Shown: piece by piece, positions 23,398 to 44,967 of the stretch
Position numbering within the stretch: the first letter of the stretch is position 1
Layout: every line of letters begins with the position of its first letter
From: Gammaproteobacteria bacterium
GTDB taxonomy: Bacteria > Pseudomonadota > Gammaproteobacteria > GRL18
Direction of reading: 5' to 3'
Length of the DNA: 64,000 nucleotides
Assembly: GCA_016744375.1 (NCBI GenBank)
Contig: JADGEM010000010.1
Coordinates: forward strand, 18,609-82,608
The notes under the pieces: model-generated
What the model was told of the DNA's origin: nothing
The model's input: the letters and a program-made list of their open reading frames with translations, nothing else
Database searches by the model: none
Position numbers and translations under genes: made by a program

Positions 23398-24777
23398 TCA
23401 AGGTTTACGAAAAAAAATAAAGTCCCCACCATTATCTCCTGATTTTTTAACCGCATTGTATTCCGGAGTTTGTTCAGCATCACTTTTTACTTTTCTTAGT
23501 ATTCCTGGAAATAATGATGTCGTATCACTGGCTTTTTCGATACTATTGAGAGCTTGAATAAATGCTGAAGCAAATATGGAGTGATTATTATCCCCACCCG
23601 AATCCAGTACCGGTTCAAGCCCTCCCGATGTCATAACTTTTCTGGATTTTTTTTTATCCATCTTTTCAAAATAATCAGGCTTATTTACATTCATTACAAT
23701 ACCAGCGCCTCTCTCACGTGTAATAACTCCAGAATAACAGCTATCTGAAACTAATAAGATATGTCTTGCAGGAATAGCTTTCAGAGAACTTGTAATTGAA
23801 CTGCTGGATATCCATTTGGCTGGATTATCACGACGAGCATCAACAGGCCACCAGTAACCCTCATCAGCTTCTTTGTCGAGAAAGCCATGACCGGCATAAT
23901 AAATCAACAAATGATCCTCAAATTTTAATAGTTGCCGATATTGGTAAAGGTTCGAAATAATATCATCTTCACTGGCATCCACTAATAAAGTAACTTCAAA
24001 ACCAAAATCATCGGAGAGTATTTTATTAATGGCTTGTGCATCCCAAACAGAACTTTGTAAAGGTTTAACATATTGGTATTTATTATTACCGATGATTAGA
24101 GCATAATACTTACCTTCTGGTTTAAAGTTGATGTCATCATCCATTTTCTGTACTATCTGTCCAACAATAGAAAAAGATGGTATTACCGCCTGCTGCCAAT
24201 GTGCATGATTAATAAGAAATGCATTTAATCCTTTTGTACTTAAATCATCAACCCAGTTTGACACACCCAAAAAATCAACATAGCCTGTTAATACTACTTT
24301 AGTTTTCTCACCCTGCTCATACAATGTTGATTCACCAAAATGATGGATTAGACCCACTTCACCAGCATTCATCAGTCTAAATAAAACTTTGTTCTTGGCT
24401 GCATAAAATGTATTTTTCCACATAAAATATTTTCCTGGCATAAAATCATATTCATACATGTAAGTAATTTTATTTTCAATATCGGATAGTATTTTATACT
24501 CCAGGATCCCAGGTGCTGTAGAAAGCAATTTCTCTGGGAAATGAGTCATTAAAAACCAGACTTTATCAATCGGGGAATCAATGATATAGGTCATTTTATA
24601 GGCTTTACCAGAAAACTTTCCTGAAGCAATAGGCACTATTTCAATATTATCACTTCGCTGTGTTCCAGAATATTTTTTAATTTGTTTATTCTGTATAGAA
24701 CAGGAATGTACAAAATATATAAAGAAGCCCGCAGTCAAAAAGAAAAAAATCAGATATTTAATGACGATTATTTTCAT
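23398..24777 (-). CDS. Putative lipoprotein with SRPBCC/START-like domain and C14 caspase-like domain
   Basis: Hydrophobic N-terminus with FVHSC; SRPBCC-like region; YYAGHGFLD and SDSCYSG catalytic motifs. Confidence 0.85.
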   Translation of the reverse strand: MKIIVIKYLIFFFLTAGFFIYFVHSCSIQNKQIKKYSGTQRSDNIEIVPIASGKFSGKAYKMTYIIDSPIDKVWFLMTHFPEKLLSTAPGILEYKILSDIENKITYMYEYDFMPGKYFMWKNTFYAAKNKVLFRLMNAGEVGLIHHFGESTLYEQGEKTKVVLTGYVDFLGVSNWVDDLSTKGLNAFLINHAHWQQAVIPSFSIVGQIVQKMDDDINFKPEGKYYALIIGNNKYQYVKPLQSSVWDAQAINKILSDDFGFEVTLLVDASEDDIISNLYQYRQLLKFEDHLLIYYAGHGFLDKEADEGYWWPVDARRDNPAKWISSSSITSSLKAIPARHILLVSDSCYSGVITRERGAGIVMNVNKPDYFEKMDKKKSRKVMTSGGLEPVLDSGGDNNHSIFASAFIQALNSIEKASDTTSLFPGILRKVKSDAEQTPEYNAVKKSGDNGGDFIFFRKP

Positions 24778-27700: not shown

Positions 27701-28514
27701 AGATATTATTATCCATATCACCTGTCAGCAGGTATTTCCCATCTCGAGAAATAGCTGAAGCTGAAATACCTGCAGGATGCTCTGGAAAAATTTTTGAGAC
27801 GTCATGAGCATCGAGCCCAATCAGCATGGCCTTATTTTTACTTATTACAATTATTGACTGACCATCTGGAGTAAATTGTATTTTTTTTATAATTCCAGAA
27901 GTTCTTTGAAGGATTTTATTTTGTGTGGAATGCTTTACATCATGTTTCACTGGCCAGACTTTAATTGATTTATCAAATCCCCCTGAAATTATTTTTTTTT
28001 CATCAGGTGACAAGGTAATTGATTTAATTATATCACTATGGCCCAAATATTCTGTTTCAATTTTACCCGTTACTGTTGACCACTGATAAATAACATGGTC
28101 ACTGCCACCACTGAATAGTGTTTTTCCATCATGTGATAAGGCCAGAGCAAGAGTGCTTATCCCCTCATTTTGACCTTGATTGCTGAATTTTCTGATTTGC
28201 CTGCCATTTTTAATATCCCATAAACGAATCGTATTATCCCAACTGCTGGTGGCCAAGAATTTTCCATTGCCTGAAACTGTCATTGTTATAATAGGGCTGC
28301 CATGTAATAGCTTAACAACCAGTTCCGGTTTATGAGATTTTAAAATTTTATAGGGGCTTGAATCAGCACCGTACTTGTCCTGCTCAGGAATTTCTGAGCA
28401 GGACAAACAAAGAAGAAGTGTGAGAAAGATGACTATTTTTTTTTTTGACAAAGACAGCAAGAATGACCTTGTAAGCCAACGTTTAATCATCATTCTGACT
28501 GATATAGACATCAT
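24774..28514 (-). CDS. Putative lipoprotein with WD40 repeats and C14 caspase-like domain
   Basis: LLCLSCSE lipobox-like; many WD40 units (e.g. SSSKDHSIRIWDLNTNK); YLAGHGLS and LDTCAAGS. Confidence 0.92.
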   Translation of the reverse strand: MMSISVRMMIKRWLTRSFLLSLSKKKIVIFLTLLLCLSCSEIPEQDKYGADSSPYKILKSHKPELVVKLLHGSPIITMTVSGNGKFLATSSWDNTIRLWDIKNGRQIRKFSNQGQNEGISTLALALSHDGKTLFSGGSDHVIYQWSTVTGKIETEYLGHSDIIKSITLSPDEKKIISGGFDKSIKVWPVKHDVKHSTQNKILQRTSGIIKKIQFTPDGQSIIVISKNKAMLIGLDAHDVSKIFPEHPAGISASAISRDGKYLLTGDMDNNIWLSHIKTQKIIHKFTGHSDNITALDFSPDARQFVSSSKDHSIRIWDLNTNKIIQSAQFNQKDRIETILYIDNNTVLFNKSEALSIYKIDLNQEEKRFANKSKWVSSLAMSDSGRYLITGSWDHSAYLWDLQSGMMIHHLKGHKDEVRSVAFSPNNTMAATAARDGVTIVWNVRTGSILRTIKRSEKGVKTIAFSPDNKQLILGDDDGVLWMFSLSGDSPSDSELWHRKFSNRIEAVAYTPGAQSFISANGSDLSLRETHNGELIHRFQGHVKEIYAIAVSPDGQLVSSAGNRGEDILIHNLKTNKHVLSLNNTLGVIYSLEFSPDGQTLAVAGINNNIQLWDLKSKKILKTFSSQTKIIIDLVFSNDGHYLFSSGSDQKTQIWDVGSGRNLMSLIGFNDSSWAVFDQKGRYDASNGGDISGLHWVIGRETIKLSQLKQRYYEPSLLAKVVDNNSEPIKNVDSFNAPRLYPKVITSWSGEKNKIINIQLTDQGGGIGRVVILVNNKEVSSDARAFAQSSSDHSMTIKYDLYEHPFLIPGEENTVEVFAYNDENYLSSRGVGVIFTPDKIDQDMTPTLWAVVAGISDYQGTRIDLRYAAKDAVDFNKALTLGAKKLFGAERVNIKLLTTTTADGSIQPTKEAFVQAFEQLKEAKPWDILVIYLAGHGLSIKDDYYYLTAEAGSVDLTDPEIVKHLMISGNELTHWLKSTPIQKQVMLLDTCAAGSLANSFSETREISSGQIRAIEQMKDRTGLHVLMGSAANSVSYEASQFEQGLMTYALLQGIKGAALKKEIEIDVSELIHYAADTVPELAMEIGGIQRPRIASPGFSESFTIGLIERQDRASVPLSIKKSILLKPAFMNKETLVDDLNLSEYLRAYFREQNYYKQKQSNTLNQNITYMDVDVFPEAITARGIYQYTDTSLQVQLSLGRNRKKINNKKIIVNLSGGRDISPEVLAEKIGSEIYRQINLKRGNLSTL

Positions 28515-29180: not shown

Positions 29181-29969
29181 TTATTCAATTTTTTCCAAAT
29201 TTCTGCTTTGAATAGCTTCATATTTCATTAATTGAGCTGGTAATATATAGACTGGTTTTCCAATAATCATATGAGTTTTTGTCGATACAACCAGTTTGAC
29301 TTTAGTTCCTTTTTTTACCGTTCCTGCTTTAGGTGTTTGTTTTATTACAATTTCTTCATTCATATTTTTTTGGTATTGCCTTTCAATTTTTGCGGTATCA
29401 ACTTCAAAACCAGCCCTATTGATTTTATCCATTGCGTATGAAAGCTTTAACTTTAATACATTGGGTAAGGTCATTTCAGTCACTGGAGGAGGTAATGGTT
29501 TATCGTCCTCTGAAAACACTTTCCAACCTATAATTGCAATCACTATTAATGCAATGACCAATGCCACTATCCACCAGGGAAATGATTTTTTTGGTTCATC
29601 ATCTGCAATAATAATTTCTTCTTTCTTTACTAAAACCATTTCACTACTTGTAAAATCATCTCCTGGGTTTTCTTTTGAATACACGGTGAGTTTAAATTTA
29701 TAATCACCCAGTTCCTGTGCTTCAGGTATTGTCACTTCAACTTTTATTTCTTCCGTTGTTTTACTGCCCAGCACCCAATTCGGCTCTATCTTTATGTCAA
29801 ACCATTCTTCCTTGGCAACGCTTTCATTTTCTTCATCTATAAAAATGCTGGCAGCCAAGTCAATATCTTTATCTATGATATTGCTTATGGTAAATATAAC
29901 CGAGGCTTTTGAATTTTTATCACAAGTGAATGTTCGTGAAGCAAGTGTGATTTCAACCGGTTTAGTCAT
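29181..29969 (-). CDS. Single-pass membrane protein: Ig-like N-domain, TM helix, C-terminal PASTA-like domain
   Basis: WWIVALVIALIVIAIIGWKVF TM; MTLPNVLKLKLSYAMDKINRAGFEVD ... QTPKAGTVKKGTKVKLVVS PASTA-like. Confidence 0.75.
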   Translation of the reverse strand: MTKPVEITLASRTFTCDKNSKASVIFTISNIIDKDIDLAASIFIDEENESVAKEEWFDIKIEPNWVLGSKTTEEIKVEVTIPEAQELGDYKFKLTVYSKENPGDDFTSSEMVLVKKEEIIIADDEPKKSFPWWIVALVIALIVIAIIGWKVFSEDDKPLPPPVTEMTLPNVLKLKLSYAMDKINRAGFEVDTAKIERQYQKNMNEEIVIKQTPKAGTVKKGTKVKLVVSTKTHMIIGKPVYILPAQLMKYEAIQSRNLEKIE

Positions 29970-30008: not shown

Positions 30009-30566
30009 TCAGTCGCTTATGAATTTAATATCATAAGAGACATAGACAGGTTTTTCCTGCTCAATAATTCTTTGAATCAATCTATTTTGATGCTTTTGTT
30101 TTTCTGAAATTTCAACCAGAAAGTGAAAACTTTGTTGCTTTCCATGTTTATCAATTCCATCTCTTATGGTGATTGAATTTGAGCCCGTAGCAATTTTAAG
30201 AAACTGGCTTAAGCCTTGTAATGTTCCACGCCATTGCGATAAATAAGAGGCTGACAGTATCAATTCCTGCAAACACTCTTTTTGAATTAGATGATGAATA
30301 CCCAACTTAGTATCATCATGCCAAAGCCGTTCAAGATCAGTCCAATAGCCAAGGTATTCAATAAAGGCTTCCTGGGGAGTACGGCAAGGATTAAAAAAAT
30401 CCTCAATCGTTTTAAACTGTAATTCTGTTTCTACATGCATAAAATGCATGATATCAATCAAGATTGATAAAATTGTTTCTTCATTTTTATGTTCATCATT
30501 GAGAGTTTGAAGAAAGACCTCCGGCAGTAGTGATTGAATCTCAGATTGATTCATTATCCACCTCAA
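30009..30566 (-). CDS. CIS baseplate protein, phage tail protein I / Afp12-like
   Basis: Size, position after gpJ, FIEYLGYWTDLERLW and SASYLSQWRGTLQGLSQFLKIATG. Confidence 0.75.
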   Translation of the reverse strand: MRWIMNQSEIQSLLPEVFLQTLNDEHKNEETILSILIDIMHFMHVETELQFKTIEDFFNPCRTPQEAFIEYLGYWTDLERLWHDDTKLGIHHLIQKECLQELILSASYLSQWRGTLQGLSQFLKIATGSNSITIRDGIDKHGKQQSFHFLVEISEKQKHQNRLIQRIIEQEKPVYVSYDIKFISD

Positions 30567-33150
30567 TTTCTATCGCATGCTGCTCAGAGCAAAAAAGCCA
30601 GTTTTTGGGGATTGTAATTGTTTCACTGTATAAATGACTTGAGCAGTTTTTAAAACTGGTGCTTTTTTCATCGCGAAGAAAGATCCCCTTTTTACCAGAA
30701 GTCATCAGCTTTCCTGTTACCGGTGAAGCGACAATAGATTCCGGCTCACCTAATTTGCTGATACTTTCTAAATCCAGCTTGCCATCAATTTCACGCTTCT
30801 CCCAAACCGGCTTGATTGCATTAACATCCATTTTTAATATACCTTGTTCTTCTGAGGCTGCATAGACATTAGAACCATAAAAAGTAACTGAAAAACAACT
30901 GCCTGCTTTCCAGCCATCAGACAACTTGACCCAACCTTCATGATCTTCACCTGAAACAGAAAGGTGTCGCCGGTAGCAGGCATTTCCAGACCGATTAGGC
31001 ATTTTTTTCAGCAATGCCCAGAGATAGTGGTGAGCATCTCGCTTCTGGATCGCAATATTGGCAACTTCTCCAGACTCCCATGGGGGATCTTTTAATTTCT
31101 TAAACTGATTGTCAGCCGCACCATTTGAAGAAAAATAAACCTGCCCATTCTCCTTTGAAGAAAACACAGCAACCATGCCACCGTCATGGCCATCCTGACT
31201 GGTTACAATGGCATTAATTTTAAGCTCTGGCTTTTTTGCATCCACAAGAATTTTTATTGGCACTGATTCGGTGCCAATCGTGTATTCATATAATGCATCA
31301 TCGGTTGCAATCAAAAGAACCGGACCCGTATTTTTTTCTATCCAGGCAATATCGTTGATGCCTTTAATCTTTATGCTTTCTCGCTCACTCCAGTTTTCAC
31401 CACAGTTAAAAGAGATGTGAATCTGGTCTGTTTTCTCATTATTTTTTACGATAATTGCCAATAGGCCCATATTTTCTGAAATGGCTGACGTATTTTTTTG
31501 GTAAGGAAGAATTTTTTCAATAACAAAATCAAATTCATTAATTTTTTCCCAGCCATTGCCATTATTGACTGTACGAAATAGTGACTCTCCAGAACTAGCG
31601 TACCAGGTATTCCGCTGATAGTTATCAACCGCTAGTGCCTTGCAGTTTTTTTCCGGTGCATAAAATGTATTCAGTTTTAATTGCTCAACAGAAATAACAC
31701 CCGGTTCAGATGCAATGATTTTATAAATATCCCATGACTTCAGTGATTGTCCAAAATTCCAGTCTTTAACAGAGCCGGAAATTATTTTAGGAGAAATGGT
31801 TCTGTATAGTGATTCTATAACCCGCTCTTTTACTCTTTGACTGTCCTCATTTTTATTGATGATGATTTTGCCTGTAATATAAATCGGTTTATATCGTACC
31901 CAGTTAACTTCACAGTTAATCCCAAGAGGTTTCCGATCATCAAGAACCTTTTGTATATTAAGTAGTATATTATTGGATTGCAGTGATTTTAAATAGTTTA
32001 AAGAGACTTGCTGCTCCTGACCAGCAGCTAAATTAATTTCAGGAACCAGCAACACACTCACAGTACCTGGCTTTGCATGCTTCCAGAGTGAAGATTTAGT
32101 GTAGGCTCTGGTACGACTGACTGCACCTGAGCTTTGAATAGCCAACAATTCAAAGTCTCTGGCAGTAATGGCTCTTTTTAAAGAATTAAGCTGTTGCGGA
32201 CCTCTTAATAATGCATTTTCAAGAGTCTCCATATTTCGGCCACCCACAGCAGCGACCCTGTTATTGACTGTTAAACCGGGATTTGAATCTTTAAAAACCT
32301 GCAAAAAACCTGCAGGAACATTACCGGTATCACCACCGCCATAACAATACCAGAGACGAATTTCCATTCCTTCAGGTGGGATAGAGCTGTCTGTGTCCGC
32401 ATCATCATCTAATGTCTGCTCACAATAATGGCGATAAGCTGGAGAAAACTGAATGTTGCCTGTGACACGATCAACTGTATATACAAAATCAGCTTTGTCT
32501 ACTCTGGAAAAGTCATCAACCTCATCCCAGATACCAAATTCTTTATCACTAAATTTTATTCGTTGTTTTGGGTGACAACTAATTTGATCATTAATTTCAA
32601 TGGCAACAACCAGAGAGTCTAAAATAGAATTTTTTGCAATAATGGGCCGTTTAGCCGCCTGTATAAAAAATCCAGGCTGCCCTGTAGTAACACCTGCAAG
32701 TTCCCCTTTTATCCAATGGCAATGACAAGCTGGAACTGTGACTTCTATTTCATCAGGTTTAATAATAACATCACGAGTAGTAATAAAAACGGGTGGTTTT
32801 TCAATCGTGTCATTACGTTGTCCTGAAACTCGTGTGCCTTTTGTGATTAACACATCAGCGGCCCTGGTGCTGCTTAGTCGGATAATTAATTCTGTCTGTG
32901 CTGCAATCGGTGCCTGCAGTTTAACACCAATCATGGCCAAAAATTCAATATAGGCCTTATAGGGCAATTGATTAAGCTGAGAAATCATGATTTCAGTCAT
33001 ATGTGCAAATGCTTCCAACAGCACAACACCCGGATCACCTGGCGTCAGATCCGTCCACTGTGAATTTTTCTCTTTTACTCGCTTTAATGCTGAAGCCAAA
33101 ATTTGCTCATATTGGCATTCATTAATTTTTGGGATATTCAGTGACCCCAT
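30541..33150 (-). CDS. CIS baseplate J protein (Afp11-like) with C-terminal beta-propeller-like extension
   Basis: LTPGDPGVVLLEAFAHMTEIMISQLNQLP and GNVPAGFLQVF baseplate motifs; C-terminal BNR/Ycf48-like repeats (TWYASSGESLFRTVNNGNGWEKI). Confidence 0.85.
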   Translation of the reverse strand: MGSLNIPKINECQYEQILASALKRVKEKNSQWTDLTPGDPGVVLLEAFAHMTEIMISQLNQLPYKAYIEFLAMIGVKLQAPIAAQTELIIRLSSTRAADVLITKGTRVSGQRNDTIEKPPVFITTRDVIIKPDEIEVTVPACHCHWIKGELAGVTTGQPGFFIQAAKRPIIAKNSILDSLVVAIEINDQISCHPKQRIKFSDKEFGIWDEVDDFSRVDKADFVYTVDRVTGNIQFSPAYRHYCEQTLDDDADTDSSIPPEGMEIRLWYCYGGGDTGNVPAGFLQVFKDSNPGLTVNNRVAAVGGRNMETLENALLRGPQQLNSLKRAITARDFELLAIQSSGAVSRTRAYTKSSLWKHAKPGTVSVLLVPEINLAAGQEQQVSLNYLKSLQSNNILLNIQKVLDDRKPLGINCEVNWVRYKPIYITGKIIINKNEDSQRVKERVIESLYRTISPKIISGSVKDWNFGQSLKSWDIYKIIASEPGVISVEQLKLNTFYAPEKNCKALAVDNYQRNTWYASSGESLFRTVNNGNGWEKINEFDFVIEKILPYQKNTSAISENMGLLAIIVKNNEKTDQIHISFNCGENWSERESIKIKGINDIAWIEKNTGPVLLIATDDALYEYTIGTESVPIKILVDAKKPELKINAIVTSQDGHDGGMVAVFSSKENGQVYFSSNGAADNQFKKLKDPPWESGEVANIAIQKRDAHHYLWALLKKMPNRSGNACYRRHLSVSGEDHEGWVKLSDGWKAGSCFSVTFYGSNVYAASEEQGILKMDVNAIKPVWEKREIDGKLDLESISKLGEPESIVASPVTGKLMTSGKKGIFLRDEKSTSFKNCSSHLYSETITIPKNWLFCSEQHAIEIEVDNESI

Positions 33151-33168
33151 AATTCCAGTCCTTATTGA

Positions 33169-33603
33169 TTACATCATTTCTAACGTTAATATTAACTCTT
33201 CATCAATTTCAAGTGAGTGTGTCTCATGATCCCTTATTAAATAATTAAGATAAATATCCATCTTACTGGAATCCTCAGGACTACTCACCGCATCAATACG
33301 GGTAATTGATATCCTGGGCTCCCATTTTTCCAATGCCTGAGTGACAAAGTGGATGGCCAGTCCATGAGTTGTTGCATCATTAGGCATAAAGGTAAGACGA
33401 TACAACTCACAGCCATAATCCGGCCTCCTGACTCGTTCACCAGGTATGGTTGATAACAATAATAATATCGACTGTCTGATTGCCATGGATCCATTAACAA
33501 GAGCAAGGCTTCCTGTACTAGTACAGACAAAGCCTGGATTTGATTGCCCCCGGTCAAAATCCGGATGATTAAATTTCAGAGCATGATACTGATAATTTGA
33601 CAT
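33169..33603 (-). CDS. CIS baseplate wedge protein, gp25/Afp9-like
   Basis: SILLLLSTIPGERVRRPDYGCELYRLTF, typical of the gp25 family. Confidence 0.9.
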   Translation of the reverse strand: MSNYQYHALKFNHPDFDRGQSNPGFVCTSTGSLALVNGSMAIRQSILLLLSTIPGERVRRPDYGCELYRLTFMPNDATTHGLAIHFVTQALEKWEPRISITRIDAVSSPEDSSKMDIYLNYLIRDHETHSLEIDEELILTLEMM

Positions 33604-33954
33604 TTATTTTTCTACCATAAAATTCTGCCCTGCCTGATTGACCGTATAATTAATACTGCCTGGCGGCACACCATCCGTCAGTCCTTTAAGAGACTTCAAG
33701 CACACTGGGATATTGCGAATAAAGATAAATTTTGAATGACCTTTTGTTTCATTAATGGTTGTTAAACAGGGTTTTGAACCCCCAGAAGCAGGAATAGGAC
33801 AACCGGCAATGGGCCTGCTGACAAGATCACCCTTAACAAGTATGGGAATTTTTTCAATCGTCACAAATGTCTGCGAAGCTATAATGCCCACTATCCCTGT
33901 AAGATGGTCACATTGTAATACTGCTTTCTGAGTAATTAATGCTTGTGTCATCAT
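33604..33954 (-). CDS. PAAR-like / Afp10-like spike tip protein
   Basis: Small protein between VgrG-like and gp25 genes; Gly/Pro-rich CPIPASGGSKPCLT segment. Confidence 0.6.
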   Translation of the reverse strand: MMTQALITQKAVLQCDHLTGIVGIIASQTFVTIEKIPILVKGDLVSRPIAGCPIPASGGSKPCLTTINETKGHSKFIFIRNIPVCLKSLKGLTDGVPPGSINYTVNQAGQNFMVEK

Positions 33955-35525
33955 GCTTTCTCAAAATTAATTTTACTGGCTCGTATCGTCAAAGTACTGC
34001 CTGGAGCCTCAATATCAAAAGACCCATTAGAGCTGATGAGCAGCTTATCATCCGTCATCCTAATAGCATTTCCGGATTTTGTTTCTATCAGCACTGTTTC
34101 TTCCTTGAGTTCAATGCTTGATTCAGATTTATTCGATAAACTGATTCGTTCATTTTCATCATCCAGTCTGAGTCCCTGACCGCCCGGTGTTAACATTGAA
34201 AAACGACTGACCTTACCATCTACTACAATTTCATCCGGCAGGCTTGTTTCTCCATATAAGCCACCCAGCACAATAGCCTGCTCAATGCGCTCATGCAACA
34301 TTAAGATCAGCACTTTGTCGTCTATTTCAGGCAGAGCAATAATACCTTTGTTCTCTCCAGCGCCTGGAAACAAGACTTCAATCCAGCTTGTTTCTATATT
34401 GTTATACGTAGGCAGACAAACTTTTACCTTACCGGAATTTTCAGGATCTGTAATCTGGGTAATCACACCATAGGTTACTAACGTTGATTTTGAATGTTTA
34501 GTTATTTCCGGTGGCCGGCTGGAAAATTCAGTCACAAAGCCAGATAATGGATGAATTGAATGGTTGATTTTTGTAATACGGTACTGCTGTTCATTATCCG
34601 ACACTAATAAACCTGCCAACTTAATATCAATACCAGGCCCTAATTCTATACTCCCTTCAGCCTGCCCAATCACATAATTGCTCATAGCATTTATCCGGTG
34701 AGTCTGACTGTCTCTCAGCTGTATTAACTGTTGTTCATTTTGAGCTGGCTGATCCACAATGCTTGTCTGAAAAACAGGCAATTCATTATTTGATGAATAA
34801 CTATTATCCAAAGAGCTTTTTAATGAGTCTTCCATAAATAATTGGCTCCGCTGGGGGTCCCAGCCAGAAATCACTGTTTCTGTTCCAGAGCTTGCATGGT
34901 TATTAATGCAGGCAACCTCCAGCAAATTTAAGCCATATTCAAGTTCAACCGTTGCTTCAGCTGCAGGCAGCTGAACAAAATTTAATATATTGTTACTTAA
35001 ATAAAAATAAAGACCACTTCTTTCTGATAACTCCTGCAAAAATTCAAGACTAGATGATTGGTATTGGACTAGATGATTCCACAATGGTCCTGTATCCATT
35101 GCACTAACAGAGATACCATAAGGCGACAACATTTGTTCAGCAATATCAATCACAGTTACATCAACAAAAGAACGAACAGGATGCTGCATGGCAAGGTAGT
35201 TAAGTGCATCAGAGGCAGTTAATTGGATGGTGAATCCTTGATCTGTTGAATAATGATGTGAAATAGACTTAATAAAGCCTGAAAACAAATCATGCGCTTC
35301 ATTATCAACTCTGATGTTGATTTTACCACGTTGTATGAAACTCTGAACATGAGTCTCATATTCACTTTTGGTTAGAACTAAAATCAAATTACAATGGCTA
35401 GGTGTCTGAAAACTGTGTTCAATGGTTATTTCTGTCAAACTTGTTTCAATAATATCAGAAATCATGACATCATCAATTGAGATGCTGAGTTTTTTGTTAA
35501 ATTGCAGTTGACTTTTCATATCCAT
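33951..35525 (-). CDS. CIS spike protein, VgrG/Afp8-like
   Basis: VTYGVITQITDPENSGKVKVCLPTYNNIETSWIEVLFPGAGENKG, typical VgrG OB-fold region. Confidence 0.88.
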   Translation of the reverse strand: MDMKSQLQFNKKLSISIDDVMISDIIETSLTEITIEHSFQTPSHCNLILVLTKSEYETHVQSFIQRGKINIRVDNEAHDLFSGFIKSISHHYSTDQGFTIQLTASDALNYLAMQHPVRSFVDVTVIDIAEQMLSPYGISVSAMDTGPLWNHLVQYQSSSLEFLQELSERSGLYFYLSNNILNFVQLPAAEATVELEYGLNLLEVACINNHASSGTETVISGWDPQRSQLFMEDSLKSSLDNSYSSNNELPVFQTSIVDQPAQNEQQLIQLRDSQTHRINAMSNYVIGQAEGSIELGPGIDIKLAGLLVSDNEQQYRITKINHSIHPLSGFVTEFSSRPPEITKHSKSTLVTYGVITQITDPENSGKVKVCLPTYNNIETSWIEVLFPGAGENKGIIALPEIDDKVLILMLHERIEQAIVLGGLYGETSLPDEIVVDGKVSRFSMLTPGGQGLRLDDENERISLSNKSESSIELKEETVLIETKSGNAIRMTDDKLLISSNGSFDIEAPGSTLTIRASKINFEKA

Positions 35526-35528
35526 CCT

Positions 35529-36116
35529 TTAAACCAGATAGCTGGAGATATCATTCTTCCCTTCATTAAAGATTGAGTTATTCTCCGTTTCTATTTTCTG
35601 GCCAGTAGCCTCACTTTTTGGTGCAAATCCTGCATCTAAAGATTGATGTTGATTGTTGTTTTGAGACACTCTGAGCAATCTGATTTTCAACCAGGAACGC
35701 CTGGGTACGCCAGAAAGATCAAAGACATCAAATTTCTCAGTAATAGAACTAATGACACAAGGAATATTCCAGCTTTTCCCCCAGACAAAGCGACAAAGGC
35801 CTGGCCGATATTCTCCTTCAATCTGGGTTGTATTTTCTGATAATTGCCAAATTGGTTTGGTTAGTTCTCTCACATCACTACTCTGTATTGTGGATCCCTG
35901 AATGGATATATCAAAAACCAGTTCCAGTTCCAATACTGTTTTTCCTCCACCACTGAAGATTAAGCCATCATCTGCCATTTTATTTGAATCAATAAAAATT
36001 GACTTAATATTTCTTTGATGTATACCTGAGCGTCGACTGACCACCAGTGTTTCAGGGTTCAGCATGCAACTGATCAACTGTCCAGTCTCTTCCACTAAAA
36101 AAGTTACCCGTTCCAT
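35529..36116 (-). CDS. CIS tube/baseplate adaptor, Afp7-like
   Basis: CMLNPETLVVSRRSGIHQRN ... LELELVFDISIQGS, typical CIS tube-adaptor N-terminus. Confidence 0.7.
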   Translation of the reverse strand: MERVTFLVEETGQLISCMLNPETLVVSRRSGIHQRNIKSIFIDSNKMADDGLIFSGGGKTVLELELVFDISIQGSTIQSSDVRELTKPIWQLSENTTQIEGEYRPGLCRFVWGKSWNIPCVISSITEKFDVFDLSGVPRRSWLKIRLLRVSQNNNQHQSLDAGFAPKSEATGQKIETENNSIFNEGKNDISSYLV

Positions 36117-37279
36117 AGTATCTTCCTGAAAGTACCCATATCCTGTTTTAGTATAAGGCTATATTTAAGGTTATGGTTAAGGTTGTAGCCCTTTTCTAAC
36201 AAATCTCTGCTCCATACATCAACCGGCAGTGCTGACCAGTGAGAATAATTCAAATCATTATAGAATTCAGCGGTCTCATTCAGCAGACTAACATCTTCTT
36301 GAAAAGCTGAATTACACACGACTTCTTCTTTTTGTCTCAATCGTCTTTTCTTAAACATCAGTTCTTTATTTATTTTATTAGATGACGTTTCTGGTTTTCT
36401 CTTTGGTTCATAGTTCGTATCAGAGTCACTTTTAAATCGTTCTATGGACTCCATATCTACTTCTAAATGAATCCTATCCTTTGTTTTTTTTAAAATAGAA
36501 TGAGTTCTGGTTTTAAGTGTTTCCAAACTCGACATACTGGAACTATTATCAACTATAAATTTATCCTCGATTATCTTTGTACTTTTTATGAAGCCCCGTT
36601 GAGCTTGTAACATTTTATTTGACTGTGGTATTTTATTGTTTTTTTTCTGATGATTTTTTTGCTCATGCTGATGGCTTTGTTGCTCACGCTGATGGCTCTT
36701 TTGCCCATGCTGACGGATCTTATTGCCAGCATTATCTTTTTTTTCAAAAAGATGAATGCTTCGCCCATGTACATTCATTTGTTTCATTAGAACAGGAGAG
36801 GCTTGTTCCGTTATTGATTGATTGTTTACTGATGATATTGTTTTTTTATCGATTACTTGAGTTCGCCCGGTTAGTTTAAACGGGGACTTTTTAAATAGCT
36901 TTTCCTCATTATTGGAAGTCCTTCCATGAATATCCTGAAATAGATAATTTTTATTATCTTTCTTTAGTTTTCCTGCAGCTTGCTTGTAATCAGCAGGCGG
37001 AACGATGACTTGTTTCAATGATTTTATAATCGACCTTTTATTAAACGAATGAAGGCTCAATCGATTACGCTTAATTAAATCCAGCCAGTGCTGTGGTGCA
37101 TCAGCATAAAAATGTTCTAAAGCTTTGTCATTTTTATTTTTCTTAAATGATTTATTGATCGTTTGCTTAATTGCTGATTGAAAAAAGTTGACTGCCGCCT
37201 TAACTGTCTTGGCCAGTCTCTTTACAAAAATGATATAAAGACCGAAAAGGAGACTTTTATTGTCATTATTAACAGCCAT
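36104..37279 (-). CDS. Uncharacterised CIS-locus protein, lysine-rich low complexity with 7-aa repeats
   Basis: Overlaps the Afp7-like gene and ends 3 nt from the tube gene; HGQKSHQ/REQQSHQ/HEQKNHQ repeats. Confidence 0.7.
   Translation of the reverse strand: MAVNNDNKSLLFGLYIIFVKRLAKTVKAAVNFFQSAIKQTINKSFKKNKNDKALEHFYADAPQHWLDLIKRNRLSLHSFNKRSIIKSLKQVIVPPADYKQAAGKLKKDNKNYLFQDIHGRTSNNEEKLFKKSPFKLTGRTQVIDKKTISSVNNQSITEQASPVLMKQMNVHGRSIHLFEKKDNAGNKIRQHGQKSHQREQQSHQHEQKNHQKKNNKIPQSNKMLQAQRGFIKSTKIIEDKFIVDNSSSMSSLETLKTRTHSILKKTKDRIHLEVDMESIERFKSDSDTNYEPKRKPETSSNKINKELMFKKRRLRQKEEVVCNSAFQEDVSLLNETAEFYNDLNYSHWSALPVDVWSRDLLEKGYNLNHNLKYSLILKQDMGTFRKILWNG
36661..36723. repeat. 21-bp tandem repeat inside the CIS-locus hypothetical gene
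   Basis: gctcatgctgatggctttgtt / gctcacgctgatggctctttt / gcccatgctgacggatcttat. Confidence 0.8.
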
Positions 37280-37281
37280 GA

Positions 37282-37731
37282 TCAGGCTCGCTCAAGCCCT
37301 TCATGAGCAATAACCATTGATTCAATTGCAACCCCTTGATCCAGAGCATTCAGCTTAGCTGCATTCCATTCACAGACCCATGCATTGTGCAAATTGTAAC
37401 GAAAAAACTCAGAGCCATCCGGTTTAAGCATCATTACAGATATTTCCCGGCGTTCCACTTCGCCTGAAACACTAGTCGTTAACCAGTTCCATAAGTCCAT
37501 TGACTCACTCATCCCCCAGCGAAAGGTTATTTCACTGTATTCAATACGCCCAGCCAGCTTCCTGACAGCTGGTGCAGCACCGCCTTCACGATAGTCAATC
37601 GGTGTGATTCGCATCCCTAAGCCTTCGACTTCAGAAAAATTGACCTGCACTCCTTGTCCGATATCAACTATAAAATTATAATTTCGTACAATTTCTGTTT
37701 CTGTTAAAGCCATTACAGCTCTCCTAATCAA
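37282..37731 (-). CDS. CIS inner tube protein, gp19/Afp1-like
   Basis: YNFIVDIGQGVQVNFSEVEGLGMRITPIDYREGG. Confidence 0.92.
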   Translation of the reverse strand: MIRRAVMALTETEIVRNYNFIVDIGQGVQVNFSEVEGLGMRITPIDYREGGAAPAVRKLAGRIEYSEITFRWGMSESMDLWNWLTTSVSGEVERREISVMMLKPDGSEFFRYNLHNAWVCEWNAAKLNALDQGVAIESMVIAHEGLERA

Positions 37732-37748
37732 TCGTATTCGTGGTTACT

Positions 37749-38975
37749 TTATGACTCAGACTCAGATTCTGACTCACCTTCATCGGCATCAACTTCAGTA
37801 CCGCCAGCCCATTGACCAATTTTAAAGACAATAAATTCAGCCGGCTTAACCGGAGCAATACCTATTTCAATTTCCAGTTTCCCTGAATCAATAACAGCCT
37901 GAGTATTGATTTCACCGTCACATTTTACAAAAAATGCCTGCTCCGGTGTGCTCCCCTGTAATGCACCATCCCGCCATAGCAAAGTTAGAAAAGCGCCAAC
38001 ATCTCGAACTATGGATTTCCAGAGAGTTTCATCATTGGGTTCAAAAACAACCCAGCGTGTGCTTTCGCTGATTGATTCTTCAATCATTATAAATAAACGG
38101 CGAACATTAATGTATTTCCATTCACCATCATCCAGAGTTCTTGCCCCCCAGACTTTGATGCCTGTAGTAGGGAAACTGCGGATACAATTAACCCCCCGGG
38201 TATTCAGTGCACCCTGCTCAGCCGAGCTGACGACATAAGACAAACCCAGTGCACCATTAACTGATTCATTGGCCGGCGCTTTATGAACACCCCGGCTAGC
38301 ATCTGTCCGTGCATAGATGCCAGCCATAAATCCAGACGGCGGAGCGGACAGTATTTTTTTGGTTCGACTCAGCGGTGCCTGAATTAACATCCATGGAAAA
38401 TAAAATGCAGCATAACTGGTATTTTTGGGCCTTAATCCAGTTTCTTTTTTATCCTCAGTATTTTTTTTCCCACCACTGATTATACTGGCAACAGTCTTTA
38501 ATGGTTCGATACTAGTTACTCTATCTGGAGAATCCAGTATGGCGAAACAATCTTTTGAACCCTCACAGTGATCGATGAGTGCTGTATGTGAAATGCTGTC
38601 AAAATAGCCTGGAGCCGCAACCATGGCAATTTCATCAATGACATCGAATGCACAGAGGCCGGTTCGTTTAGCGGCATCACCAGCAATCGTTTCATTTTCT
38701 GGAATATTAACAATATAACATCGTGTCCCTCCATTATTAAAAAATGAAAAAACAGCCATTGACAAAAAGGTATCACTGCCACCATTCTCACCCACATATT
38801 CATGAATAAATTGAGTCCAGTTATTGCAGGCCATTGCCTTATTTAAATGGGCCTGTTTATTAGGAGCGACACCGACAAAACCTGCCGTTTTAGTGTCAAC
38901 CGTGCTGATTGGTTTTGAGCCGGTAGATACTTCTTGAATATATACTCCGGGAGCTGCATTTGCATAACTAGGCAT
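37749..38975 (-). CDS. CIS contractile sheath protein
   Basis: APGVYIQEVSTGSKPISTVDTKTAGFVG; C-terminal VKPAEFIVFKIGQW sheath signature. Confidence 0.95.
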   Translation of the reverse strand: MPSYANAAPGVYIQEVSTGSKPISTVDTKTAGFVGVAPNKQAHLNKAMACNNWTQFIHEYVGENGGSDTFLSMAVFSFFNNGGTRCYIVNIPENETIAGDAAKRTGLCAFDVIDEIAMVAAPGYFDSISHTALIDHCEGSKDCFAILDSPDRVTSIEPLKTVASIISGGKKNTEDKKETGLRPKNTSYAAFYFPWMLIQAPLSRTKKILSAPPSGFMAGIYARTDASRGVHKAPANESVNGALGLSYVVSSAEQGALNTRGVNCIRSFPTTGIKVWGARTLDDGEWKYINVRRLFIMIEESISESTRWVVFEPNDETLWKSIVRDVGAFLTLLWRDGALQGSTPEQAFFVKCDGEINTQAVIDSGKLEIEIGIAPVKPAEFIVFKIGQWAGGTEVDADEGESESESES

Positions 38976-39651
38976 TACTATCCTCCAGTTTTTTCAATGA
39001 AATGGGTATTTCCTTTCCATTGTATTTATTATGCTTATATGAATATCGCTGGTTATCTTTTTTGGTATAAATATTGATAATTGTATCGGAAGCAGAAGGG
39101 ACTAGACCCAGATTAAAAAAACCTTTTTGATCGGTCAGGACTGATCGCTGCCCTGAATTTAATTCAACCCTGCATCGTTCAAGTGGTTCATTATTAAATC
39201 CTGTCAACTTACCATAGATTGGAACCATGGGCGTAGTGACAATGTTTGGCTCTTCCTTAATCAAAGGGGCTTCCTCCCCTGTTTTTGGAATATCAAGCAG
39301 ATAGATTAATGAGAAGACAGGTTGCGGAAATAGCTTAAGCGCCTGCCAATAATCCACAGACAGCGTGTCTGGTAATAGATGAAAAACCGGATGATCGCAG
39401 CCTGACATGAGTAATTTGGAAATAACATCATGGGAGCGCTCAATTGAAGCTGAATGAACAGTGATCAGATAGTTTAGTTTTACCTGAGTATATGTGGGAT
39501 TTGTATTACCCATCAATTTTTCAAGAGAACTCAGATAAACACAGATGCAATCATTATCATGAGCAATAGCAGGCACACAAAACTCTACATTGATATTTTT
39601 GACAATATCAACTAGCCAGAGCTTGATTTGTTCATTTATCTGATTAATCAA
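38968..39651 (-). CDS. Pvc16/Afp16-like tail-terminator protein with C-terminal carboxypeptidase-regulatory-like domain
   Basis: Pvc16-N-like region (LNYLITVHSASIERSHDVISKLL) then IYGKLTGFNNEPLERCRVELNSGQRSVLTDQKGFFNLG. Confidence 0.75.
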   Translation of the reverse strand: MINQINEQIKLWLVDIVKNINVEFCVPAIAHDNDCICVYLSSLEKLMGNTNPTYTQVKLNYLITVHSASIERSHDVISKLLMSGCDHPVFHLLPDTLSVDYWQALKLFPQPVFSLIYLLDIPKTGEEAPLIKEEPNIVTTPMVPIYGKLTGFNNEPLERCRVELNSGQRSVLTDQKGFFNLGLVPSASDTIINIYTKKDNQRYSYKHNKYNGKEIPISLKKLEDSNA

Positions 39652-39793
39652 AACCTGTTCCCGTTAGAATTTTTAGCTCAACAATAAAATTATTGACTAC
39701 AAATAAACAGCTTTATACCCGAGTCATTTGAAAATTCTAAATTTAAATGAGTTTGAATATATTTTTTAGAAACGAAAAATTGGCTAAGACTGC

Positions 39794-39813
39794 AACACTG
39801 ATCAATCAGTGTT
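39794..39813. promoter_or_regulatory. Perfect 9-bp-arm palindrome in the divergent CIS/caspase intergenic region
   Basis: AACACTGAT-CA-ATCAGTGTT. Confidence 0.45.
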
Positions 39814-40164
39814 AATAACCGATAAAGAATCACTTAAAGGCTAAGTGTATTATGAAGCAACTTTTTAAATGATTTTGTTTTTTAATAATAAACTAAAAAA
39901 AATATAACACAATAGAAAAATCAATTTTCTTTAATTAGGGATTACCCTATCATTATTCTTTCAGAGTTGTAATTATTTTAAACAAGCCTATACTGGATGA
40001 TATCTTATAGTTTATTTCTGTTTTCAATTTTTTGAATTTATTCAAAATAAAGTTGTTATAACAGGTTTCTTTTCACAGACTATTTTTTCATAAACTTTCA
40101 TAAACTATTGTTCAGTAAGCGGTAAACAATATTAGCCACACTATCTAGGATAGGAGAATTTATT

Positions 40165-42969
40165 ATGTGGTCTTTATTTTCTACTGTTCCTGCTAAATTA
40201 TTCCTTATTCTTTTCTGCCTTATCATCTTACCTGCCTGCTCAGAACAAAATGATGCTAAAAGTGATGAAAATTCGTCACTGTCAGAGTTAACATCCTGCC
40301 AACCTGAAACACCTGTTATTTCAGCAGATGGAAAGCGACGTATGGCACTTATCATTGGTGTAGGTCAATACAAAAACAATAAAATTAATGATTTAGAGGG
40401 GCCACCTGAAGATGCTAAACGAATTTATCAACTATTAACTGATAAAAATGGCTACCAGTTTCCAGAAGAAAATGTCTGTCTGCTGCTTAATCAATACGCA
40501 GACAAAAAATCAGTAGTCAGTGCATTTAAGCAAAGGCTGATTGAGCCTGCCCAACAAGATGATATTGTGGTTTTTTATTATGCAGGTCATGGTTCACAAG
40601 TTACTGATCTCAACAATGATGAACCTGACAATATGGATGAGACACTTGTTTTACATGACTCTCGTACTGAGGGTGTACTCGATTTAATTGATGATGAATT
40701 TAATCAGTTGTTGAGCCAGTTATACAATAAAACACACAATATTTCAGTATTTCTGGATTCCTGTAATTCCGGCACCGCAACACGCGGTAATTATACCGCT
40801 CGTTTTATCCAACCACTCATCTTGCAAAAAACCATGACTGATTCACAAAGTCGCTCAGTGGGTGATGGAAGTGAAGAAATAACCTCTGATTCCATGCCTG
40901 GAATGGTTGTTTTCACTGCTGCCAGCGACAACACCGCTGCATTAGAACGTGCAGGACATGGTATTTTTACTGATGCTCTACTGTCATCCTTTCTTCAGAC
41001 TTCTGGTTCTCCCATTACATTTCTGCAGGCATCAAGAAAGATACCAGCACTGATATTGGCACAGCAAAGCGATCAGAAACCTTATTTTCAAGGCAAGTTG
41101 GATCAATACATTTTTTCCAGTGAACATTTTAAAAAGCCTTTTTCCTGGGATATTACGAAAGTGACTGATCCTGAAGCAGCTAATGGCATTCATTTAAGTG
41201 GTATCGCCATGCCAGGTTTAGGTGTTGGCTCAGAGCTCAGGGTGTTCCCAGGTAACACCCGCTATGAAGACAGCCAGGATTTAAATCATTCAATAGCAAC
41301 GATCGTTATTGACACGATGAAAGGCCTCAATGCCAAGGGTCACATCAGCACCCTGACTAACGGAGCACAAGCCATTCGGGCTGGAGACTATGCAATATTG
41401 ATAACCCCAGCAAACAATAATACAACCATTACAGTCTCTTTAAGAGATTCAGACAAGCCTTCAGGCATTCCATCAAACCTGGCAAAAAAAATAGTCAATG
41501 CGCTAAAAAATAATCCTGAAGCGTTTAAAGTTGTTCAAATTGTGCAGGATAAGGCTGATTTTGAACTGATTTACAAAAAAGACAAAGGCATTGCTGTCGT
41601 TGGTCCTAAAAATAAAATTCGAGCTCAATTTACCTCTGAAACCCAGGTCATTCATAATTTGTGGCAACATGCACGGCATCGCGCATTATTGCAGCTTCAG
41701 GGTGAGGGCGGTACTGATTTTGTCGACAACCAGACATTACAGGTGCAGCTGATACCTGCCCCCATGCAAAACCAATGCAGTAAGAAAGACAACTGGCAGC
41801 AGGCACCAGCTAACGCCAATCAGGGCATTCCACTGTGCCACAAGTGGCAAATTAAAGTTTCTTATACTAAATCTTCAAAAGAATTACCTACACTGCTCAT
41901 TGGTGGTGTCATCCAGTCATCTGATGGTAATTCTTTCGGACTGCCTTATGATGGCAGAAATATCCCTCTGAACCCCGGCGAAGAAGTCATCTTACCCGGG
42001 ACATTCATCGGCCAACTACCTTTGGAAACCACGGATACAGTGATGATATTTGGAACTCAGGAAAGCAACCCGGTTCACTGGTATCTATTAACAGATGTGA
42101 GTCGTACGGAAACTCGGGGTGATCACAGTCCATTACAGAATACGATTGAGCAATACCTCACACAAACACGCGGCGTTGGTCAGACAAGCAGCACTGAGGC
42201 AGACACATCAACCTGGACAAGGAGTATTGTTCCCATGAAGGTTGAAGCGAACAGCCGATTTCTTAAGCCGAAGACAATGGGTACAGCTTCAGATTTTGAC
42301 AGCAGAGAATACACAATCCAGCATTTTAATATTCTCCCCTATCTGCCAGACAATGAGCAGTCCCCGCTTTATCGTGTTTTGCAGACAGCCGATCAGCTGG
42401 CCCGCTCATCCATCAATGATGGCTATCCTTATACTCAACATGACTGGAGTCAGGGAAGTGATGATAAAAACCTTAAAAAAGGCATCGATTGCTCACGTTC
42501 AATCTGGTATGCCTTTACGCGTTCCGGTTTAGATTATAACCATAAGAATTCTTACCTCACGACAAAGGAAATGGCTGCAGAAGGCTCTGTTATGAATGAT
42601 GAGTTTATCCGCTGCGATAATCAGCCCGTACAAATCGGCGATATTCTTGTTTATCGGGATGATACTCGTGGCGATGGTCATACCGTAATGGTAATAGATC
42701 CTCAAAAACGTATCGCCTGGGGATCTCATGGCTGGGATGGTAGTGGCAAAGCACTGAAGATTGAACCTGATACAGGTGTTGAATATCAATTGATTAAATA
42801 TAAAAAAGACTGGGCTCGCTGGGATAGAAAAACCATGTTCAAAAAAGCCTGTTGGCGGTATAAGCAATTTAGCAGTCAAACTCACTCAGATGGTGAATTA
42901 TCTCAGGCAGAAACCCGAGGTTATCAATCATTAAAAAATTATTGCAAAAACAGAAAATGTACACAATAG
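40165..42969 (+). CDS. Putative lipoprotein: C14 metacaspase-like domain with C-terminal NlpC/P60-like domain
   Basis: LPACSE lipobox; FYYAGHGSQ (His codon 40588) and LDSCNSGTATRG (Cys codon 40762); KGIDCSRSIWYAF ... GHTVMVID. Confidence 0.85.
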   Translation: MWSLFSTVPAKLFLILFCLIILPACSEQNDAKSDENSSLSELTSCQPETPVISADGKRRMALIIGVGQYKNNKINDLEGPPEDAKRIYQLLTDKNGYQFPEENVCLLLNQYADKKSVVSAFKQRLIEPAQQDDIVVFYYAGHGSQVTDLNNDEPDNMDETLVLHDSRTEGVLDLIDDEFNQLLSQLYNKTHNISVFLDSCNSGTATRGNYTARFIQPLILQKTMTDSQSRSVGDGSEEITSDSMPGMVVFTAASDNTAALERAGHGIFTDALLSSFLQTSGSPITFLQASRKIPALILAQQSDQKPYFQGKLDQYIFSSEHFKKPFSWDITKVTDPEAANGIHLSGIAMPGLGVGSELRVFPGNTRYEDSQDLNHSIATIVIDTMKGLNAKGHISTLTNGAQAIRAGDYAILITPANNNTTITVSLRDSDKPSGIPSNLAKKIVNALKNNPEAFKVVQIVQDKADFELIYKKDKGIAVVGPKNKIRAQFTSETQVIHNLWQHARHRALLQLQGEGGTDFVDNQTLQVQLIPAPMQNQCSKKDNWQQAPANANQGIPLCHKWQIKVSYTKSSKELPTLLIGGVIQSSDGNSFGLPYDGRNIPLNPGEEVILPGTFIGQLPLETTDTVMIFGTQESNPVHWYLLTDVSRTETRGDHSPLQNTIEQYLTQTRGVGQTSSTEADTSTWTRSIVPMKVEANSRFLKPKTMGTASDFDSREYTIQHFNILPYLPDNEQSPLYRVLQTADQLARSSINDGYPYTQHDWSQGSDDKNLKKGIDCSRSIWYAFTRSGLDYNHKNSYLTTKEMAAEGSVMNDEFIRCDNQPVQIGDILVYRDDTRGDGHTVMVIDPQKRIAWGSHGWDGSGKALKIEPDTGVEYQLIKYKKDWARWDRKTMFKKACWRYKQFSSQTHSDGELSQAETRGYQSLKNYCKNRKCTQ

Positions 42970-42983
42970 AAGGAACTCAGATT

Positions 42984-43907
42984 ATGAATAAAACAACTTT
43001 ATTTATTCCTTTTTTTATTGCGGTATTTTTATTAGTTTCATGTAAAGCAACCATACCTAATTCTCCGAGTTCATCAAGTACAAGGGATAGTTCACAAAGT
43101 CGGCATCCACCCAGGATTGATTCTTTTGAAGCATTCCCTGCCATGTTTACGCAAGGTGATGCAATTGATTTAAACTGGGAAACATCTCATGCCACAGAAG
43201 TCCATATTTCAGGAGTAGGCAGAGTCAATAATTCCGGCTCTCATCATATCAATAATATCAGTGTTGATCAGGCTGACATCATCCTGACCGCTTCAAATAA
43301 TGGTAATTTTTCACCAGATACAGAAAGACTTAATATGCAAGTGGTACTTATGTCTATATCAGGCCCTGTTCCTGATAACTTTAAGGGTCCCAGAGACAAA
43401 CCTGTTTTGATACTTGGCAATAGGGCGACTATTAATAACAAAATAAACAGATATAAACTGCGGCCCATTGATAAAAGCATGATAAGAGATCATCGCGTAC
43501 AAACAGTTACACCCCGCCCGGCAGCCAACAGTTCTTCTATGCAAATCAAACCAATGATTGCTACTCCTATGCACTATAATATTGCGCAGCCAGGTATTCC
43601 AAAATTGCTCAGCCCTGCTAATAATAGTTCATTCAGGCACTTTCCAAGAACATTGAAGCTAAAATGGAGATCAGTAAGCAATGCCACGAGTTACAATGTT
43701 GAAATTGATTGTATGCATTGCTGTGCCAGTGGCAAATGGTGTACGGATGTAGGAGGCAAATACAAGCAGCTCAAGGGAATCAGGCGCACCTATTATCAGT
43801 TTAACTTTGTCGGTTCTCAGCCTGGTCGTTGGCGGGTTCAGGCTGTTGATAAAAACGGCAAAAAAGGTCAGTACAGTCACTGGAATAATTTTAGTTTTTC
43901 AAAATAA
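42984..43907 (+). CDS. Putative lipoprotein with Ig/FN3-like domains
   Basis: FLLVSCKA lipobox; internal Met start preferred to 42942; C-terminal SATSYNVEI-like FN3 pattern. Confidence 0.65.
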   Translation: MNKTTLFIPFFIAVFLLVSCKATIPNSPSSSSTRDSSQSRHPPRIDSFEAFPAMFTQGDAIDLNWETSHATEVHISGVGRVNNSGSHHINNISVDQADIILTASNNGNFSPDTERLNMQVVLMSISGPVPDNFKGPRDKPVLILGNRATINNKINRYKLRPIDKSMIRDHRVQTVTPRPAANSSSMQIKPMIATPMHYNIAQPGIPKLLSPANNSSFRHFPRTLKLKWRSVSNATSYNVEIDCMHCCASGKWCTDVGGKYKQLKGIRRTYYQFNFVGSQPGRWRVQAVDKNGKKGQYSHWNNFSFSK

Positions 43908-43924: not shown

Positions 43925-44263
43925 ATGGATGATTTTTTTACATCAGAGCCAGCATTTACTCCATTAATGGCTGGCACCTTTACGCTGACGGCTGCAGCGA
44001 CACTGGCCACAACATTTGGCTGGCCCGGAAGCCTGACTGCAGTGATTATCAGCATGCTTTTGGCAGTTGCAATATCCATTAATAAAAAAATATCCATAAT
44101 CAAAAAGGTTGTTTTTTATCTGATTAATGCAATGACCATTTTTATTGTTGCTATGGGTCTGAACTCCGCAGGAATGTCTTTAACACAAGAACAAAAAAAT
44201 AACACTGTGGAGCGCAGTGTTGAAGATACTGCTCAAAAACCCTTTTTTCATTCATGGTTCTGA
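43925..44263 (+). CDS. Small inner-membrane hypothetical protein
   Basis: Two to three TM helices; follows the caspase and lipoprotein genes. Confidence 0.55.
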   Translation: MDDFFTSEPAFTPLMAGTFTLTAAATLATTFGWPGSLTAVIISMLLAVAISINKKISIIKKVVFYLINAMTIFIVAMGLNSAGMSLTQEQKNNTVERSVEDTAQKPFFHSWF

Positions 44264-44310: not shown

Positions 44311-44967
44311 ATGGAAAAATTAAGAAAACCTTTTTTTTACACAGCAACTATTATTTTATTTATATCTTTACTGATTGAACTGTCAACTGGACTTTTTGGG
44401 CAACAACTGGAAATACCCGGATTAGGAATTCCCTCTATTGCACTGATAGACAGTCTACTGGTATTTGTCATTACAATGATGTTGCTCAATGTTCTGGTTT
44501 CGCCCGCATTGATCGGAAAAATCAGTGGTATCAGTACACTGATTTTTTCACTCATCATACTCATTGTCTCTGTTGTAGTTCTGTTTACCAGCCTTATAAA
44601 ACTTGTGTCAATGATCTCACTGCTATTAGCGGCACCTTTTGGAACCATTTCCTATTTTGCATTATTTACTCCTTTTGAAAGAGCTAAAGCAGCCTTTGTA
44701 TTAAGCATTCTCATATCACTAAAACTTCTGTTTGCTATTTTTCTGGTACTAGCGCAACAACGCTTTTTAGAAAATAAGGGGCTTATTATTTTAATTTTTA
44801 CGGTGCTGCTGGCCACGATTCTAGTTGGGTTCCTCCATGCATTTCCGCCTGGATTTCTGGCCAGTATACTGGATGCTTTAGCTGCAATTATTGTTTCGAT
44901 CATTGCTTTGCTCTGGTCTTTAAACTTTTTTATTCGTTCCATCCCTGCAATTACAAAGCTCTTTTAA
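44311..44967 (+). CDS. Multi-TM hypothetical membrane protein
   Basis: Several TM helices; same orientation as preceding genes. Confidence 0.6.
   Translation: MEKLRKPFFYTATIILFISLLIELSTGLFGQQLEIPGLGIPSIALIDSLLVFVITMMLLNVLVSPALIGKISGISTLIFSLIILIVSVVVLFTSLIKLVSMISLLLAAPFGTISYFALFTPFERAKAAFVLSILISLKLLFAIFLVLAQQRFLENKGLIILIFTVLLATILVGFLHAFPPGFLASILDALAAIIVSIIALLWSLNFFIRSIPAITKLF

Follow-up and report, generated by a model that had tools for sequence, protein, structure and literature searches.

The gene at positions 40,165 to 42,969 of the window, by which we mean the whole 64,000-nucleotide stretch of DNA analyzed here, encodes a predicted lipoprotein of an uncultured gammaproteobacterium that joins a metacaspase-like domain to a phage tail-lysin-like domain, and it is located directly beside the structural operon of a contractile injection system (CIS), a phage-tail-like injection machine. 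We tentatively read this caspase-lysin protein, stopping just short of an even chance, as the periplasm-facing protease and wall hydrolase of a CIS-linked envelope module that would open the producer's wall for firing, release, or lysis. The gene and its parts are as follows.

40165..42969, +, 934-aa predicted lipoprotein with a caspase and a tail-lysin-like (NlpC/P60 superfamily-like) domain (ribosome-binding site before the ORF, Pfam C14, orthologues)
40165..40239, +, signal sequence and lipobox LPAC25, aa 1-25 (hydrophobic segment at aa 4-22; C25 conserved in orthologues)
40333..41124, +, metacaspase-like domain, aa 57-320 (Pfam, PDB metacaspases, invariant residues)
40588-40590 and 40762-40764, +, codons of the caspase dyad, H142 and C200
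41125..42264, +, middle region, aa 321-700 (no family match)
42265..42309, +, linker, aa 701-715, poorly conserved, with basic residues (31-53% identity)
42310..42879, +, tail-lysin/NlpC-P60-like domain, aa 716-905 (phrog_1015, hhalign, dN/dS)
42490-42492 and 42679-42681, +, codons of the C-terminal dyad, C776 and H839

An AGGAG site precedes the ATG of the ORF, and this, together with the lipobox, bears out the lipoprotein gene that an earlier sequence-only reading had placed here. By inspection, the lipobox takes the form LPAC or LTSC in four of the homologues and an atypical form, QAGC, in that of genome G260. Judged from hydropathy and motif, as are all export signals reported here, the protein is probably exported and lipid anchored, and the Ser at position +2 suggests, by the Lol rule of E. 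coli, sorting to the outer membrane. The caspase-like nature of the N-terminal domain, proposed by the same reading from its HGS and DSCNSG motifs, was also upheld. Peptidase_C14 matched aa 58-311 with an E value of 5.1e-21 (75.9 bits against a Pfam cut-off of 21.4), and both motifs, containing H142 and C200, respectively, are invariant across five homologues. Among PDB sequences, the closest solved relatives are metacaspase-1 chains (yeast; E=3e-17); their type-I motif, DLDGDEEDGMDD, corresponds in the alignment to DLNNDEPDNMDE of the window protein. The domain is accordingly described as type-I-metacaspase-like, with cleavage after R/K and Ca2+ dependence as predictions. A long cyanobacterial "caspase family protein", encoded on the Calothrix brevissima plasmid AP018209.1, aligned with aa 61-665 (23% identity, 65% of the protein); it is alike in the caspase and middle regions, but the alignment ends before the lysin domain. 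Plasmids yielded no full-length relative, with the caspase and middle regions being the only parts that aligned. The least conserved internal stretch is the short linker between the middle region and the lysin domain, a possible metacaspase cleavage site. Its variability and basic residues are only compatible with a self-cleavage event that would free a lytic domain, as had been suggested.

The C-terminal domain carries DCSRSIWYAF (C776) and GDGHTVMVID (H839), and both residues are invariant in the five homologues. It had been described as NlpC/P60-like, a description that stood in the wider sense of the superfamily, since the order of Cys, GDxxx motif, and His is found in the sequence. Membership of the Pfam family itself did not stand: NLPC_P60 (PF00877) scored 14.2-16.8 bits in the window protein against a cut-off of 23, although it reached E=5.8e-5 in other homologues. 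Scanning the domain alone raised the Pfam bit scores slightly; for the whole protein, Amidase_5 (17.5 bits) and DUF4846 (17.4 bits) were also below their own cut-offs. In contrast, the PHROGs family phrog_1015, "tail protein with lysin activity", matched all five homologous domains (2.4e-7 for the window, 3.3e-8 at best). Aligned with hhalign to genuine NlpC/P60 proteins of related genomes, the domain scored 35.5, compared with a maximum of 18.7 for 50 column-shuffled profiles. Alignment with the tail lysin of SIOphi gave a probability of 95%, with DCS, an LTT/MTT motif, the GD-x-x-x-Y strand, and GDGH coinciding. The profile found nothing meaningful among PDB sequences, and tblastn against phages returned nothing at E<=0.01; several of the weak phage matches at E 0.2-10 are annotated as tail lysins. 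No relative of the domain was found in a scan of IMG/VR. Because a PF00877 search of genome G000 gave no match, the caspase-lysin may be the sole NlpC/P60-like protein of that genome.

In a multiple alignment, the canonical third His of NlpC/P60 enzymes is replaced by Ala851 in the window protein, and the same position is Gly and Ala in two phage tail lysins. The absence of this His from all three proteins suggests that the tail-lysin subgroup uses another residue or a dyad. H855 was considered as the third catalytic residue and ruled out, as it is Met in G260. Given the subthreshold Pfam scores, the matches to phrog_1015 and in profile alignment, and the missing third His, we call the domain tail-lysin-like within the NlpC/P60 superfamily and not a member of Pfam NLPC_P60. 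AlphaFold models were of low confidence, with a pLDDT of 35 for the full protein and 39 for the C-terminal domain alone. The proposal that one protein combines a protease with a wall hydrolase was borne out in part, the two domains being joined in one exported protein with both dyads conserved.

Relatives of the same length share 73% (L003 of G004) and 65% (L004 of G021 and L005 of G019) identity with the window protein, and a distant relative in G260, a genome of another order, shares 47% over 916 aa. Both dyads, H142/C200 and C776/H839, are kept in all five homologues. The lysin domain is the most conserved and most constrained part of the protein. Its identity to L003 is 89%, compared with 71% for the caspase domain and 69% for the middle region, and its dN/dS against L003 is about 0.05, a rough value with dS near saturation. 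Since the dyads are conserved and the strongest constraint falls on the hydrolase domain, it likely hydrolyzes peptidoglycan, both the activity and its substrate being read from these features. The distribution of the gene is patchy: it is present in 4 of the 24 genomes of its own order and 1 of the 40 genomes of the order of G260, and a phylum-wide draw of 399 genomes gave no other match.

The CIS and the membrane protein gene that follows it occupy the other side of the divergent region.

30009..39651, -, CIS structural operon (Pfam)
38968-39651, -, p227
37749-38975, -, sheath
37282-37731, -, tube
36104-37279, -, p391, between the tube and LysM-like genes
35529-36116, -, LysM-like tube protein
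33951-35525, -, VgrG-like spike
33604-33954, -, PAAR-position protein
33169-33603, -, gp25
30541-33150, -, baseplate J
30009-30566, -, Tail_P2_I
29181..29969, -, bitopic PASTA membrane protein, directly after Tail_P2_I (PASTA 1.4e-10, Pfam; TM segment at aa 134-152, hydropathy)

As the sequence-only reading had stated, the caspase-lysin gene is transcribed divergently from the CIS, the minus-strand genes of which lie directly upstream. The same arrangement is found in G004 (L003). In the distant order, the gene of G260 lies downstream of the CIS on the same strand, and the two are separated by a gene homologous to that of the six-TM operon partner described below. Contiguous adjacency of gene and CIS is limited to three genomes (the window, G004, and G260), as contigs break in G019 and G021. 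Within the gene's own order, a close-type sheath (at least 84% identity) occurs in three of the four gene carriers (G000, G004, and G021) and is absent from all 20 noncarriers; these counts come from related genomes, and any P value derived from them would be optimistic. In G019, the gene is on a 4-kb contig, and a matching CIS was not seen there. Such linkage and co-occurrence could mean transfer as one island and not joint function. The CIS of G260 (L072 2020-5560) has two sheath and two tube genes, compared with one sheath gene in the window. Homologues of the PASTA protein were found in G004, G021, and G260; that of G260 (L030 11410-12768) is longer, with several PASTA-like repeats. The 391-aa p391 is basic and of low complexity, conserved mainly at its N terminus, and is possibly a cargo or a disordered factor.

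The divergent intergenic region precedes the caspase-lysin gene, and three operon partners follow it.

39652..40164, no strand, divergent intergenic region, with blocks conserved versus L003 at 39780-39798, TTGGCTAAGACTGCAACAC, and at about 40118-40134, AGCGGTAAACAATATTA
42984..43907, +, second lipoprotein, with lipobox LVSC and an Ig-like segment, encoded directly after the caspase-lysin in the operon (homologues in L003, L004, and L005)
43925..44263, +, 112-aa inner-membrane protein (two hydrophobic segments; conserved in L003 and L004)
44311..44967, +, predicted six-TM protein of 218 aa (hydropathy; beside the gene in G260 too, with 44% identity)

The first Met of the second lipoprotein's signal is at 42984, whereas 42942 is a mechanical TTG start. 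Its Ig-like segment belongs to a separate lipoprotein in the window and is fused to the second caspase in G260. The 19-mer TTGGCTAAGACTGCAACAC is common to G004, occurs once in the window, and overlaps the palindrome AACACTGATcaATCAGTGTT within 39780-39820. No sigma-54 promoters were found in the divergent region, a simple promoter and terminator scan showed no excess over shuffles, and an Rfam search gave no match. Genes for sigma-54-type response regulators lie near the CIS in the window (15895-17295, -) and in G260 (L072 7804-9198).

Beyond the PASTA gene, the locus is rich in proteases.

24774..28514, -, lipoprotein-like fusion of WD40 repeats and a caspase (lipobox; C-terminal caspase at about 25233-25973, GHG/DTC intact)
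23398..24777, -, second CIS-locus caspase, a predicted lipoprotein (Pfam 9.8e-23; GHG/DSC present)
22155..23294, -, exported M48/U49(Lit)-like zinc peptidase (Pfam, PADLOC, hydropathy)
19553..22168, -, exported TPR-CHAT protein, caspase clan (Pfam CHAT 6.7e-13; signal segment)

Three of the six C14 matches of the whole genome sit at the CIS, namely, the caspase-lysin, the caspase lipoprotein, and the WD40-caspase, the latter two having gone unmentioned in the sequence-only reading. PADLOC caspase and Lit profiles match at the locus, and hydropathy indicated export signals in the caspases, the CHAT protein, and the Lit-like peptidase. The contigs that carry the CIS in G004 and G021 also encode the conserved WD40-caspase fusion; the one in G004 yielded no counterpart of the CHAT, peptidase, and caspase genes (19553-24777). 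By eye, a different TPR/CHAT-like protein is encoded near the caspase-lysin gene of G021 (L004 5309-7852, -). Where a genome has a CIS of another lineage, its C14 genes are on contigs other than that of the CIS or are lacking, so, as far as sampled, the caspase association appears specific to the CIS lineage of the window.

We propose that the caspase-lysin would act as an outer-membrane lipoprotein facing the periplasm and consisting of an R/K-type metacaspase, a flexible linker, and a peptidoglycan endopeptidase of the phage tail-lysin type. Given their hydrophobic signals, the caspases, the CHAT protein, and the lysin domain are predicted to be on the periplasmic side. The CIS would be assembled in the cytoplasm and then dock at the inner membrane via the bitopic PASTA protein. 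A stress or death signal would render the exported caspases active, and the wall hydrolase would be switched on by a caspase that cleaves it or a partner, by Ca2+, or by damage. Opening of the peptidoglycan would then allow the CIS to fire, to be exposed, or to be released with lysis of the producer. That the caspase controls the lysin domain, serving as its switch and perhaps cleaving its own chain, we infer from the fusion of both in one protein; self-lysis would be the putative outcome. A wider version, in which this gammaproteobacterial CIS lineage has its own exported caspase cascade (lysin-caspase, WD40-caspase, caspase lipoproteins, and TPR-CHAT) for programmed envelope lysis of the producer, with the tail-lysin-type domain on the caspase lipoprotein as executioner, appears to us somewhat unlikely. 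If true, it would amount to an apoptosis-like trigger for a phage-tail weapon.

The main rival to such an envelope-opening module is ordinary local wall remodeling, in which the hydrolase makes a local gap for the tube of a membrane-docked CIS, with the caspase limiting or timing its action and no cell dying. Type VI secretion and flagella have dedicated wall hydrolases, and housekeeping of this type would fit the conserved, co-operonic membrane proteins and lipoproteins, the PASTA membrane protein within the CIS operon, and the absence of any wall-hydrolase match (Pfam) from the CIS structural proteins. However, it does not account for a locus with three caspases, CHAT, and Lit-like peptidases, and tuned remodeling seldom needs a caspase; we consider it unlikely. 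The same proteases suggest a different alternative, in which a stress- or phage-sensing periplasmic network (caspases, WD40-caspase, CHAT, and Lit-like) kills through wall hydrolysis and shares an island with the CIS but has no mechanical connection to it. Caspase, CHAT, and Lit families recur in defense and conflict systems, in line with the PADLOC matches and the patchy distribution. Retention of the CIS and related neighbors beside the gene even in a distant order with rearranged gene order, together with the caspase-free contigs of other CIS lineages, makes this improbable.

The C-terminal domain might also have the fold of the NlpC/P60 superfamily but leave peptidoglycan uncut, being a transferase, a deamidase, or a binding remnant, which would leave the protein simply a periplasmic caspase. 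This would agree with the noncanonical third catalytic residue and the subthreshold Pfam score, but the canonical third His is likewise missing at this position from the best-matching tail lysins, and Cys and His are invariant in what is the most constrained domain; we rate it as decidedly improbable. CIS loci often encode effectors, and the domain pair is toxin-like, yet delivery of the caspase-lysin into other cells as CIS cargo is hardly credible when its Sec/lipoprotein signal and lipobox point to the envelope and its gene is divergent, with membrane proteins as operon partners. The identity of a CIS effector was rejected on the basis of this signal. The most economical reading remains a module of the envelope by which the producer's own wall is opened and the CIS fires, becomes exposed, or is released.

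Cell-associated CISs need a way to leave, or to fire across, the wall of the cell that makes them, and their ties to programmed cell death are a recent finding. The caspase-lysin offers a concrete, conserved, single, and testable executioner candidate beside a CIS. It also gives a bacterial example of a caspase that may target a wall hydrolase directly. In Streptomyces, CIS contraction and cell death require the membrane protein CisA (PMC12237407). CisA is bitopic and encoded after the baseplate genes; by hydropathy and gene order, the PASTA protein has the same topology and lies directly after the baseplate genes here. The likeness is one of position and topology, as the periplasmic domain of CisA is substrate-binding-like and not PASTA (PMC12237407). 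In Anabaena, stressed cells with a thylakoid CIS become ghost cells without outer membrane and peptidoglycan, exposing the membrane-anchored CIS (PMC8894136). Both systems are cell associated and tied to death of the producer, as proposed here, and a caspase is mentioned in neither text (PMC12237407, PMC8894136). A search of the open-access literature for CISs with a caspase or C14 found no reported link.

Lysis cassettes of tailocins and phages (holin, endolysin, and spanin) likewise place inner-membrane proteins, a wall hydrolase, and an outer-membrane lipoprotein beside a tail-like particle. Unlike in these cassettes, the hydrolase of the window is fused to a caspase and probably lipid anchored, and no holin or spanin family was matched in Pfam. 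The tail lysins of Herelleviridae (phrog_1015; SIOphi, YP_009625855.1, and Enterococcus phage EFDG1, YP_009218337.1) share DCS, GDxxx, a catalytic-type His, and a noncanonical third position with the caspase-lysin; of the two, only that of SIOphi, a Bacillus phage, has GDGH. Their lysin domain lies within a phage tail protein, whereas that of the window is carried by a cellular caspase lipoprotein, which, with its Sec signal and lipobox, its caspase domain, and its divergence from the tail operon, is not a structural tail part as phrog_1015 would imply. Fusions of a metacaspase with Amidase_2 are also alike in having C14 and a peptidoglycan hydrolase in one protein; four were described in 2012 (Polaromonas, Nitrosococcus oceani, and others) in a report by Asplund-Samuelsson that proposed a role in cell death (PMC3501461). 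A caspase-wall-hydrolase fusion is therefore not new as a general idea. Their hydrolase is an N-acetylmuramoyl-L-alanine amidase, and the passages on these fusions make no mention of CIS linkage (PMC3501461); the window protein has a cysteine tail-lysin-like domain instead. The novel features are a hydrolase of the cysteine tail-lysin type, probable anchoring by lipid, and conserved linkage to a CIS.
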